This document shows positions 24,668 through 27,875 of a stretch of 64,000 nucleotides of DNA, one piece after another. How positions within the stretch are numbered: position 1 is the first letter of the stretch; each line of letters opens with the position of its first letter. The stretch spans positions 1-64,000 of the forward strand of contig JACIYT010000008.1 of the NCBI GenBank assembly GCA_014359765.1. The letters run 5' to 3'. The DNA comes from Roseovarius sp. (GTDB lineage: Bacteria; Pseudomonadota; Alphaproteobacteria; Rhodobacterales; Rhodobacteraceae). The notes beneath the pieces are model-generated. The model did not search any database, was not told where the DNA came from, and saw only the letters and a program-made list of their open reading frames with translations. Both the position numbers and the translations under genes were made by a program.

Positions 24668-25450
24668 ATGCGCATCGCCACGTTCAACATCAACGGCATC
24701 AAGGCGCGCCATGCCGCGCTCTGCGACTGGCTCGACGAGGCCACGCCGGAGGTGGTGCTGTTGCAGGAGATCAAGAGCCTCGATGCGGCCTTCCCGCGCG
24801 AGGCCTTCGAGGAGCGCGGCTATAATGTCGAAACCCACGGGCAAAAGGGATTCAACGGGGTGGCGATCCTGTCGAAGCGCCCGCTCGAGGACGTGACGCG
24901 CGGCCTGCCCGGCGACGCGAGCGACGAACAGGCCCGCTGGATCGAGGCCACGGTGATGGGCGAGACGCGCGCGCTGCGGCTCTGCGGGCTCTACCTGCCC
25001 AATGGCAACCCGGCGCCGGGCCCGAAATTCGACTACAAGCTGGCCTGGATGGCGCGGCTGCGCGCGCGCGCCGCCGAATTGCTCGCCACCGAGGAGCCAG
25101 TGCTGATGGGCGGCGATTACAACGTCATCCCCCAGGACGAGGATGCCGCCCGCCCCGAAGCGTGGCGCGCCGATGCGCTGGCGCGGCCCGAGAGCCGCGC
25201 CGCCTTTCGCCGGATCCTCCATCAGGGCTACACGGACGCGTTCCGCGCCCGCGTGCAGGGGCCGGGGCATTACAGCTTCTGGGATTACCAGGCCGGCGCG
25301 TGGGAACGCAATGACGGCATCCGCATCGACCATTTCCTGCTCAGCCCGCAGGCCGCCGACCTGATGACCGATTGCGGCATCGACACGGCCCTGCGCGGGC
25401 GCGACAAGCCCTCCGATCACGTGCCCGTCTGGGTCGAGATCGACGCCTGA
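24668..25450 (+). CDS. xth: Exodeoxyribonuclease III
   Basis: AP endonuclease/3'-5' exonuclease of base-excision repair. The 260 residues show the EEP-fold catalytic motifs 'ATFNINGIKAR', 'LQEIKSLDAAFP', 'LCGLYLPNGNP', 'GGDYNVIPQDED', 'RNDGIRIDHFLLS' and 'KPSDHVPVWVEID'. It follows the IscA-type gene by 86 bp and converges on the terminase gene. Confidence 0.95.
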   Translation: MRIATFNINGIKARHAALCDWLDEATPEVVLLQEIKSLDAAFPREAFEERGYNVETHGQKGFNGVAILSKRPLEDVTRGLPGDASDEQARWIEATVMGETRALRLCGLYLPNGNPAPGPKFDYKLAWMARLRARAAELLATEEPVLMGGDYNVIPQDEDAARPEAWRADALARPESRAAFRRILHQGYTDAFRARVQGPGHYSFWDYQAGAWERNDGIRIDHFLLSPQAADLMTDCGIDTALRGRDKPSDHVPVWVEIDA

Positions 25451-25468
25451 CGCGCCCGCTGCCCCCGC

Positions 25469-26812
25469 TCACATTGCGCGCATCCGGGGTGCGCGCCACC
25501 TGGCGCCGGCCTCGACGATGAGATCGGTCAGCGCCCAGACCAGCGCATCGACGCGGTCGGGGCTGCCGCGCCCCTCATAGCCGCGCGCGGTCATGGCGCA
25601 CATCTGATCCTCGAGTGCCCCCAGCCCGCGCAGGTGGTGCACGCGCCCCTGTTCATAGAGCGCCGCCACCGGCTCGGCGCGCAGCACCTTGCCCCGGGTC
25701 GCGTGGACCTTGCGCAGGGGCACCAGCGGGTCGAGCTGGCGGATCACCTGTTCGACCAGATCGCCGCCCTGGTTGACCTCGGCCACCAGCCTTTCGGCAC
25801 CCCGGCGATCCATGGCCCGGATCGCGGCCTCGGCCCATTGCGCGGGGCTGGCGCCGGTGACGCTCGCATCCTCGAGCACATAAGCGCGCCAGTCCGAGAC
25901 CGGGCCGCGCATGAGCACACCCGCCACCACGATCCCGCAGGCATCCGACTTGCCATGCCCCGTCACCGGCGGGTCGATGGCGACCACGATCCGGTCGAGC
26001 GGCGGCGCGGCCTCCACGCGCCCCGCCTCGATCAGCGCCGGTGTCCAGAGCGCATCCTCGGCCTCGTCCACCAGCACACCGTCGAGTTCCTGCCGCCCGA
26101 GCCGCGTGCCCGCGTAGCGCGCGCGCACCTCCTCGAGAAAGCCCTGCGCGAGATTGGCGGCATTGGCCTCGGTCGGTGCACTGGTGACCACGGTCGTGTC
26201 GCGCTCCAGGATCTCCTTGAGCACCCCCACATTGCGCGGCGTGGTGGTGACGCAGACGCGCGGATCCTCGCCCAGCCTCAGGCCGAATTGCAGCATGTCC
26301 CAGGTCTCGCGCGCGCGTTTCCACTTGGCCAGCTCATCGACCCAGGCCCCGTCGAATTGCGGGCCGCGCAGGGATTCGGGCTCATGCGCGGAAAACACCT
26401 GCGCGGTGGCGCCGTTGGGCCAGAGGAGCCGCTTGCGCGTGGCCTGCCATTCGGGGCGGCGATCGGGGGGCGAACAGGCCATGATCCCGCTCTCGCCAAA
26501 GATCATCACCTCGCGCACCTGATCGACGGTCTCGCCCACCAGCGCGAGGCGATTGCAGCGCCCCGGATCGAGCGGGCGCGCGCCCTCGACCTGTGCGCGC
26601 ACCCATTCGGCGCCCGCGCGCGTCTTGCCCGCGCCGCGCCCGCCGAGGATCACCCATGTGCGCCAGTCGCCGTCGGGTGGCAACTGATGCGGCATGGCCC
26701 AGAACTCGAAGATCCAGGGCAGCGCAAAGAGCTCACCCTCCGTGAGGGCAGCGAGGAAGTCCTCCTGCGCATCGGGCCCTTCTGAGACGATCCAGGCGGC
26801 AGCCGATCTCAT
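25469..26812 (-). CDS. Phage/GTA large terminase (RcGTA g2-like)
   Basis: ATPase-nuclease motor that packages DNA into capsids. The 447 residues contain Walker A 'GGRGAGKTRAGAEW', a Walker B-like 'GAWVDELAKW', the 'CVTTTPR' coupling motif, and the RNase H-like nuclease with 'VVAIDPPVTG' and a late 'SPDRVDALVWAL'. The N-terminal 'ALPWIFEFWAMPHQLPP' resembles the gene-transfer-agent g2 protein of Rhodobacterales. It overlaps g1 by 80 nt. No portal, protease or major capsid gene follows; the next gene is convergent xth. The coding sequence looks intact. Confidence 0.85.
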   Translation of the reverse strand: MRSAAAWIVSEGPDAQEDFLAALTEGELFALPWIFEFWAMPHQLPPDGDWRTWVILGGRGAGKTRAGAEWVRAQVEGARPLDPGRCNRLALVGETVDQVREVMIFGESGIMACSPPDRRPEWQATRKRLLWPNGATAQVFSAHEPESLRGPQFDGAWVDELAKWKRARETWDMLQFGLRLGEDPRVCVTTTPRNVGVLKEILERDTTVVTSAPTEANAANLAQGFLEEVRARYAGTRLGRQELDGVLVDEAEDALWTPALIEAGRVEAAPPLDRIVVAIDPPVTGHGKSDACGIVVAGVLMRGPVSDWRAYVLEDASVTGASPAQWAEAAIRAMDRRGAERLVAEVNQGGDLVEQVIRQLDPLVPLRKVHATRGKVLRAEPVAALYEQGRVHHLRGLGALEDQMCAMTARGYEGRGSPDRVDALVWALTDLIVEAGARWRAPRMRAM

Positions 26813-27089
26813 GCCGGGCTGCGTCGAAATCGATGGCGTATCCGTGGGCGATGCCACGTTCCTGTTGTCTGCGTTTGTCAAGCTGCGCCTCCGCTTCAAT
26901 GGCGATCTTGAGCCATTGCCGGATCTCGGCGGTGGCCCGTGTTGCGTGTTTCAGTTCTCCGAGGTCCCCGGCCCGGATTTTCAGGTAAAGCTCTTCCAGT
27001 TCCTCGCGCATGTCCGCGAGTTGCTGCTCGAGCGCGTTGATCGAGGTGGTCAGCCCCGAAGGCCGCTCCTCCGGGGTGATCAGAACCAT
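26733..27089 (-). CDS. Small terminase-like protein (RcGTA g1-like)
   Basis: The 118 residues form a helical protein with a coiled-coil N-terminal half ('TTSINALEQQLADMREELEELYLKI') and the block 'ATAEIRQWLKIAIEAEAQLDKRR' followed by 'YAIDFDAARHEIGCRLDRLRRAR', which I recognise as the GTA g1/TerS type. Its 3' end overlaps the large terminase gene by 80 nt, longer than usual. The ATG at 27089 is chosen over the ORF-track start because the extension reads through a terminator hairpin. It is preceded by a promoter and that hairpin. Confidence 0.75.
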   Translation of the reverse strand: MVLITPEERPSGLTTSINALEQQLADMREELEELYLKIRAGDLGELKHATRATAEIRQWLKIAIEAEAQLDKRRQQERGIAHGYAIDFDAARHEIGCRLDRLRRARCAGGLPRCPHGG

Positions 27090-27150: not shown

Positions 27151-27183
27151 AAAAAGCGGCCTCCGGGGGGTCCCCGGGGCCGC
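27151..27183 (-). terminator. Intrinsic terminator or attenuator upstream of GTA g1
   Basis: On the minus strand GCGGCCCCGGGG pairs across a short loop with CCGGAGGCCGC (one bulge) and is followed directly by TTTTT. It lies 60 bp upstream of the g1 start and about 20 nt downstream of the expected start of the TTGACA promoter at 27211-27239. Confidence 0.7.
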
Positions 27184-27210: not shown

Positions 27211-27239
27211 GTCATACGACAAAGCGCACGCAATGTCAA
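27211..27239 (-). promoter_or_regulatory. Sigma-70-type promoter upstream of GTA g1
   Basis: On the minus strand TTGACA (27239-27234) is followed after exactly 17 bp by TATGAC (27216-27211). Transcription would begin near 27204 and run straight into the hairpin at 27183-27151. This is one of the best promoter matches in the window. Confidence 0.6.
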
Positions 27240-27290: not shown

Positions 27291-27875
27291 TCAGGGATTT
27301 TCTGCCCGCCAGGCGGCCCAGGCCTCGGGGGTATCGAGATCGGTTATGGCGCGCGCGCCGGGCAAGGGGCAGAGCGTCACGGGATGACGCGCAAGCAGCG
27401 CGCGCGCGCCCTCGTCCCCCGCGAGCGCGGCCATCTCGGGCAGGAGGGCGGCGGGAAAGATCACCGGGTGGCCGGGGCGGCCATCCCCGGAGGTGGCGCG
27501 CAGGATGGTCCCGCCGTCAAAGGCGCGCAGGGCGGTCTCGAGGTCCTCTGCCGTGAGGTCCGGCATGTCGGGCAGCACCACCATCAGCGCGCGCGCGCCC
27601 CGCGCCTGCGCCCAATCCGCCCCCGCCCGCAGCGAGGAGGCCATGCCTTCGGCGGCCTCGGGCACGGTGCGGCGCACCACCGCCAGCCCTTCGAGCGCCG
27701 CCGCGCGCGCATGATCATCGGGCGGCAGCGTCACGAGCACGTCGGGGCTCAGCCTCAGCGCCACCTCGGCCCGCTCGCGCAGGAGGGCACGCCCGCGCAC
27801 CACCTCCAGCAGCTTGTCGCGCCCGCGCATCCGCCGCGATGCCCCGGCGGCGGGCAGGAGGAGGACGACGGTCAT
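27291..27875 (-). CDS. MobA-like NTP transferase (molybdenum cofactor nucleotidyltransferase family)
   Basis: Predicted nucleotidyltransferase that attaches CMP or GMP to molybdopterin. The 194 residues show the nucleotide loop 'LLPAAGASRRMRGRDKLLEVV', 'VLPDMPDLTAEDLE' (metal Asp) and 'GRPGHPVIFPAALLPEM', the MobA/MocA pattern. Such proteins usually work with xanthine-dehydrogenase/CoxL-type enzymes, but no molybdoenzyme is in the window. It stands alone between the ABC operon terminator and the GTA genes. Confidence 0.82.
   Translation of the reverse strand: MTVVLLLPAAGASRRMRGRDKLLEVVRGRALLRERAEVALRLSPDVLVTLPPDDHARAAALEGLAVVRRTVPEAAEGMASSLRAGADWAQARGARALMVVLPDMPDLTAEDLETALRAFDGGTILRATSGDGRPGHPVIFPAALLPEMAALAGDEGARALLARHPVTLCPLPGARAITDLDTPEAWAAWRAENP

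Follow-up and report, generated by a model that had tools for sequence, protein, structure and literature searches.

Gene transfer agents (GTAs) are domesticated phage-like particles, those of RcGTA type carrying random pieces of host DNA of ~4 kb. It is customary to regard the head-tail genes as a single co-transcribed cluster, whose contiguity is used to recognise GTAs. In the stretch of marine Roseovarius DNA analysed here (the window, 64,000 nucleotides of a genome referred to as G000), a GTA-type terminase pair, g1-g2, is followed by the convergent host gene xth instead of a portal gene, with 18 bp between the end of xth and the g2 stop (Table 1). The first-pass annotation had noticed this arrangement and considered two explanations, namely that a rearrangement had split the cluster and left the remainder at another place, or that the pair is a decaying remnant. 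The question raised by the locus is which of these applies, and how the pair could serve a GTA from where it stands.

Table 1. Features at and around the terminase pair, in window positions
Feature	Position	Strand	Basis
xth (exonuclease III), convergent host gene at the breakpoint	24668..25450	+	junction common to four genomes
g2, GTA large terminase (TerL), 447 aa	25469..26812	-	Pfam Terminase_6N and Terminase_6C, motifs
g1, TerS-like small terminase, 118 aa, overlapping the g2 start	26733..27089	-	position and conservation
Terminator-like hairpin with trailing T run in the g1 leader, downstream of the promoter	27151..27183	-	conservation, fold
Promoter-like site of g1, TTGACA-17-TATGAC	27211..27239	-	alignment with relatives
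Host gene for a MobA-like nucleotidyltransferase, upstream of g1	27291..27875	-	Pfam NTP_transf_3 (8.6e-28)

Both terminase genes were found to be intact, as annotated. Comparison of TerL with Pfam revealed Terminase_6N (1.4e-29) and Terminase_6C (8.3e-20), covering the ATPase and the nuclease domain, and the Walker A motif GGRGAGKT, the Walker B motif WVDE, the RNase H/nuclease motifs and AIDPP are all preserved. The g2 frame is open up to a TTG at 26899 (25469-26899, minus strand); the ATG at 26812 is more likely to be the true start, because G041 has a stop in the same frame upstream of that ATG. TerL is 91-93% identical to its counterparts in split relatives and 70-93% identical to GTA TerL of related genera, while identity to the best phage TerL does not exceed 55%. 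The g1 frame is open over its whole length; family searches with its product gave no match, and everywhere in the genus g1 is retained ahead of GTA TerL. In the species covered by PMC6854486, terS of the GTA immediately precedes terL, and the window has the same arrangement, a GTA-like TerL with g1 directly upstream. A second TerL of GTA type was not found in the G000 genome.

The pair is surrounded by host genes (xth, iscA, dgt, the mobA-like gene and, also upstream of g1, an amino-acid ABC transporter). Around the pair neither integrase nor phage genes were detected, and the replication and lysogeny genes that would mark a prophage beside a terminase are absent as well.

A portal search of the G000 genome, a draft of 41 contigs, gave a strong match on contig C38, the terminase pair being on contig C40. 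Within 18 kb around this match, g3, g3.5 and g4-g15 were found intact, in canonical order and on a single strand; the contig ends about 0.9 kb beyond g3. The g3 product matched the RcGTA portal structure 6tba (Rcc01684) at 1.4e-189, and g5 matched the RcGTA capsid structure 6tb9 (Rcc01687) at 1.8e-182, showing the head and tail genes to be homologous to those of RcGTA. The accessory loci are also present, lysis, head spike and GafA being represented by PF11351, PF10983 and PF20057, each above its cut-off: C5 carries the PF11351 holin, preceded by an endolysin-like gene, C8 a DUF2793 protein of head-spike type, and C38 a DUF6456 GafA-like regulator. We take the DUF2793 protein to be the GTA head spike, and DUF6456 is presumably GafA. 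The search for g3-g15 proposed in the first-pass annotation thus located the complete missing block. Of the two findings named there as contrary to an orphan GTA pair, neither was obtained: the genome holds no complete g1-g15 cluster of which the window pair would be a redundant copy, and the matches of g3 and g5 to RcGTA, together with the distance of TerL from phage homologues, speak against an ordinary prophage. A single contiguous head-tail cluster, which is typical of GTAs without being part of their definition, is not what this genome carries.

In G000, G008, G041 and G043, g3 has a divergent H-NS-family gene beside it (L003:17274-17621, plus strand); the other genomes read showed none at that place. 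The gene is a candidate local regulator.

We conclude with good confidence that the window locus is the packaging half of an RcGTA-type GTA whose head-tail cluster has come apart at g2|g3, giving two modules.

To place this in context, searches for a set of markers that included g2, g3 and xth were run on 85 Roseovarius genomes. Both g2 and g3 were found in 68, being adjacent in 50 and not adjacent in 18; the latter take in two insertions of about 10 kb of host genes (G077 and G082, where inspection by eye revealed only host-type genes and no integrase) and two decayed cases (G001, G084). Among the other genera of the family, represented by one genome each, g2 and g3 were adjacent in 92 of 94 readable pairs and unlinked in two (Fisher p = 2.6e-6 for genus against family, calculated with 49 joined genomes instead of 50 and ignoring shared ancestry). 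Since portal and capsid genes following g2 are the family rule, as had been assumed, their absence after the window g2 is a real departure. The split as it occurs in G000 was also found in G008, G040, G041 and G043, and other splits were found in G039, G072, G076, G036 and the clade of G035, G024, G023, G058 and G049. The g2|xth junction is common to G000 and three other species (G008, G041, G043), the hns|g3 junction also recurs among genomes, and most other members of the genus carry a different gene block after xth. No break within g3-g15 came to light in those split genomes that were read completely. A description of the g2|g3 split was not found in the literature searched, which comprised papers available without subscription. 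Two minor observations were made in the course of this survey. In part of the G035 group, a weak match to an IS200/Y1-like transposase (REP-associated type) lies beside g2 (L053:8604-9086, L060, L058), and the Paracoccus large-plasmid records H13, H15, H16 and H17 contain a GTA-type TerL of about 68% identity with no listed gene under the match.

Each module is preceded by conserved sequence of its own. Just upstream of g3, a 22-bp element, TTAAACCTTTnnnnGTCTGATG, is conserved in joined and split genomes; it is preceded by GCGCGCGGT and often also by TTTACTTTCC. At five mismatches or fewer, TTAAACCTTTnnnnGTCTGATG was found no farther than 117 bp from g3 in 38 of 39 genomes, including all 14 split ones, and nearly all of 3000 random control windows had six or more mismatches. 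The element is specific to Roseovarius and close relatives and absent from other genera, several of which (e.g. Rhodovulum) show by eye a terminator-like hairpin in the g2-g3 gap. It was not found at the other or accessory GTA loci of the G000 genome. It resembles no promoter known to us and could be an operator or an RNA feature; a CtrA box was considered and rejected, as the spacing does not fit.

Upstream of g1, most relatives carry TTGACW-17-TATAGG in alignment with the window site, whichever gene lies farther upstream. A scan with a stricter promoter consensus missed the window site, and the site is absent in the most divergent relatives, e.g. G033, G070, G077 and G082. The leader hairpin is conserved in nearly all g1-carrying relatives, again regardless of the upstream gene, and folds strongly, with the whole leader just 1.7 sd below shuffles. 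The combination of promoter and hairpin leader suggests that g1 may be controlled by attenuation or anti-termination. A short ATG frame is also present in the g1 leader.

Gene orders around both halves and trees were compared to trace the history of the split. The order mobA-g1-g2-xth is common to G000, G041 and G043, with g2-xth in G008, and mobA-g1-g2 also occurs in G040, G039, G072 and G048. In G036 and G076, g1-g2 stand beside ispG, as they do in the joined genomes G021, G022 and G071. In three members of the G035 group, g2 and g3 are about 88-90 kb apart on opposite strands, a layout that fits what one inversion would give. Because joined species (G048; G009 and G042) are nested among split ones in host-gene trees, at least three separate splits, always at g2|g3, would be required if no re-joining took place. 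On this comparative evidence, a clade numbering at least five species has inherited the split, and other Roseovarius acquired theirs separately.

At the breakpoint itself, neither the direct repeats that the first-pass annotation proposed to look for near 25450-25470 nor an insertion element was found, only chance-like matches being present there, and the xth|g2 and hns|g3 junctions have no sequence longer than 10 bp in common. Where g2 and g3 are joined compactly, the g3 element overlaps g2, its first ~13 bp being the 3' end of that gene. This stretch is doubled in decoupled genomes, where g2 retains its end and the element its copy, so the freeing of g2 involved a local duplication, not a clean cut.

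The presence of about 13 bp of the g2 end at both breakpoints would also be expected if the whole cluster had been duplicated to the mobA site and complementary losses had followed, in place of a one-step translocation. Two genomes point in this direction: G048, which complicates the history by being nested near split species with its whole cluster joined at mobA, and G040, in which the gene found after g15 in G000 and G043 stands directly after g2. Together they suggest duplication and complementary loss as part of the history. A genome with two full copies was not seen, however, and the G035-group layout agrees with a simple inversion, and we regard this origin for the window locus as possible, with somewhat less than even prospects. 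As it concerns origin only, it is compatible with the explanation of the locus as one of two functional modules.

Selection was assessed by pairwise NG86 estimates of dN/dS. Within the all-split clade, omega was 0.19 for g1, 0.13 for g2, 0.125 for g3, 0.10 for g5 and 0.14 for g15, and 0.16 for the housekeeping comparison with argS and xth; over the whole cluster, values ranged from 0.10 to 0.32, and the G035 group gave 0.09 for g2 and 0.06 for g3. Values for both halves like those of housekeeping genes imply constraint, not decay, and the estimate for g1-g2 among relatives that had been proposed as a check indicates purifying selection. It is improbable on these data that the pair is the decaying leftover of a GTA that was lost, or that the split GTA as a whole is on its way out. 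It is true that GTA loss is common in the genus (no g2 match in 4/73 and no g3 match in 10/73 good-quality genomes) and that G084, with a broken g2 and a truncated g3 (L193/L194), sits inside a split clade. Against this, the frames of both modules are open, neither broken frames nor an omega near 1 having been found, their constraint equals that of housekeeping genes in five split species, the accessory genes are present, and the g3 element is kept in every split genome.

Recruitment of the terminase pair to another job, for instance to package DNA for a resident prophage, so that it no longer serves the GTA, is more improbable still. A separate prophage with its own portal does exist in G000 (L004, C1:222000-236000; integrase-, terminase-, portal-, protease- and capsid-like genes), but it owns a large terminase-like gene (L004 11757-13385, named from sequence and position only), and g2 evolves at the rate of g3 and retains its GTA-type leader. 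Lastly, an assembly artefact, in which g2 and g3 would be contiguous in the real chromosome and misjoined in a 41-contig draft with the g3 block near a contig end, can practically be dismissed, as xth|g2 lies inside a contig and recurs in three independent assemblies, hns|g3 recurs too, the conserved g3 element follows unrelated sequence, and both halves are on one contig in G008 (320 kb apart) and G041 (48 kb apart).

The division of the cluster at g2|g3 is likely to represent two separately promoted modules, packaging motor and particle, that would be assembled in trans. Transcription of each module would start in a control region of its own, with GTA regulators common to both, and motors produced from the g1-g2 locus would dock in trans on portals produced from the g3-g15 locus, the outcome being functional DNA-filled particles. 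The g2|g3 boundary, and no other, may break harmlessly because a separate control element for g3 was in place beforehand. It is rather doubtful that g2|g3 is a module boundary selected for separate control of motor and particle, instead of merely a tolerated break; in that reading, the g3 control element overlaps the g2 end and is duplicated when g2 and g3 part.

RcGTA of Rhodobacter capsulatus is itself multilocus, with a head-tail cluster and separate lysis, head-spike, tail-fibre and gafA loci (PMC10883770, PMC6209664). The Roseovarius GTA agrees with it in gene content and order, with a portal and a capsid that match Rcc01684 and Rcc01687, and in the kinds of accessory loci. It differs in that the terminase pair occupies a further separate place, whereas in RcGTA the head-tail genes including those for packaging are in one cluster, and in that g3 has its own conserved upstream element. 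A survey of Rhodobacterales found the GTA cluster itself well preserved even when translocated (PMC9836097); compared with the clusters surveyed there, the genes and the bacterial order are the same, and the Roseovarius cluster has been cut repeatedly at g2|g3. CcGTA of Caulobacter is under anti-termination control (PMC11150451). A terminator near the cluster start is common to both, and the Roseovarius g1 leader hairpin would suit similar control. A single promoter serves the whole of CcGTA as one unit, which is not possible for the particle genes of split Roseovarius.

A method that requires the portal or capsid genes to adjoin the terminase would miscall the split genomes as prophage fragments or as incomplete. 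The split species are natural experiments on whether motor and particle need common transcription; they could show if it is through transcription or through position that a GTA avoids packaging its own genes, and they bear on how selection keeps GTA genes without linkage.

Further decay states of the GTA were encountered in the genus. In G020 (L069), g13-g15 stand directly after g2, and in G060 (L237) g2 is intact and g15 reduced to a scrap. Nine Roseovarius genomes without g3-g14 carry an in-frame fusion of TerL (residues 1-189) with the C-terminal half of g15, as a single open frame of 840-893 aa (L233 in G014, L234 in G046, L235 in G018, L236 in G066, L240 in G012, and L243-L246 in G017, G027, G047 and G080). 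An intein in TerL was considered for these long frames and discarded, as they are TerL::g15 chimeras. The junction, WVDE|YGCAA, is identical apart from WADE in one genome and YGCPA in another, with microhomology of only ~3 bp by eye. In trees, the two halves of the chimera each cluster with their intact counterparts from the sister species, at about six positions, so that either the same deletion would have recurred or the junction or deletion allele would have spread by recombination or horizontally. Within one four-species fusion clade, where constraint could be estimated, omega was 0.08-0.16, and the chimera is possibly an exapted gene.
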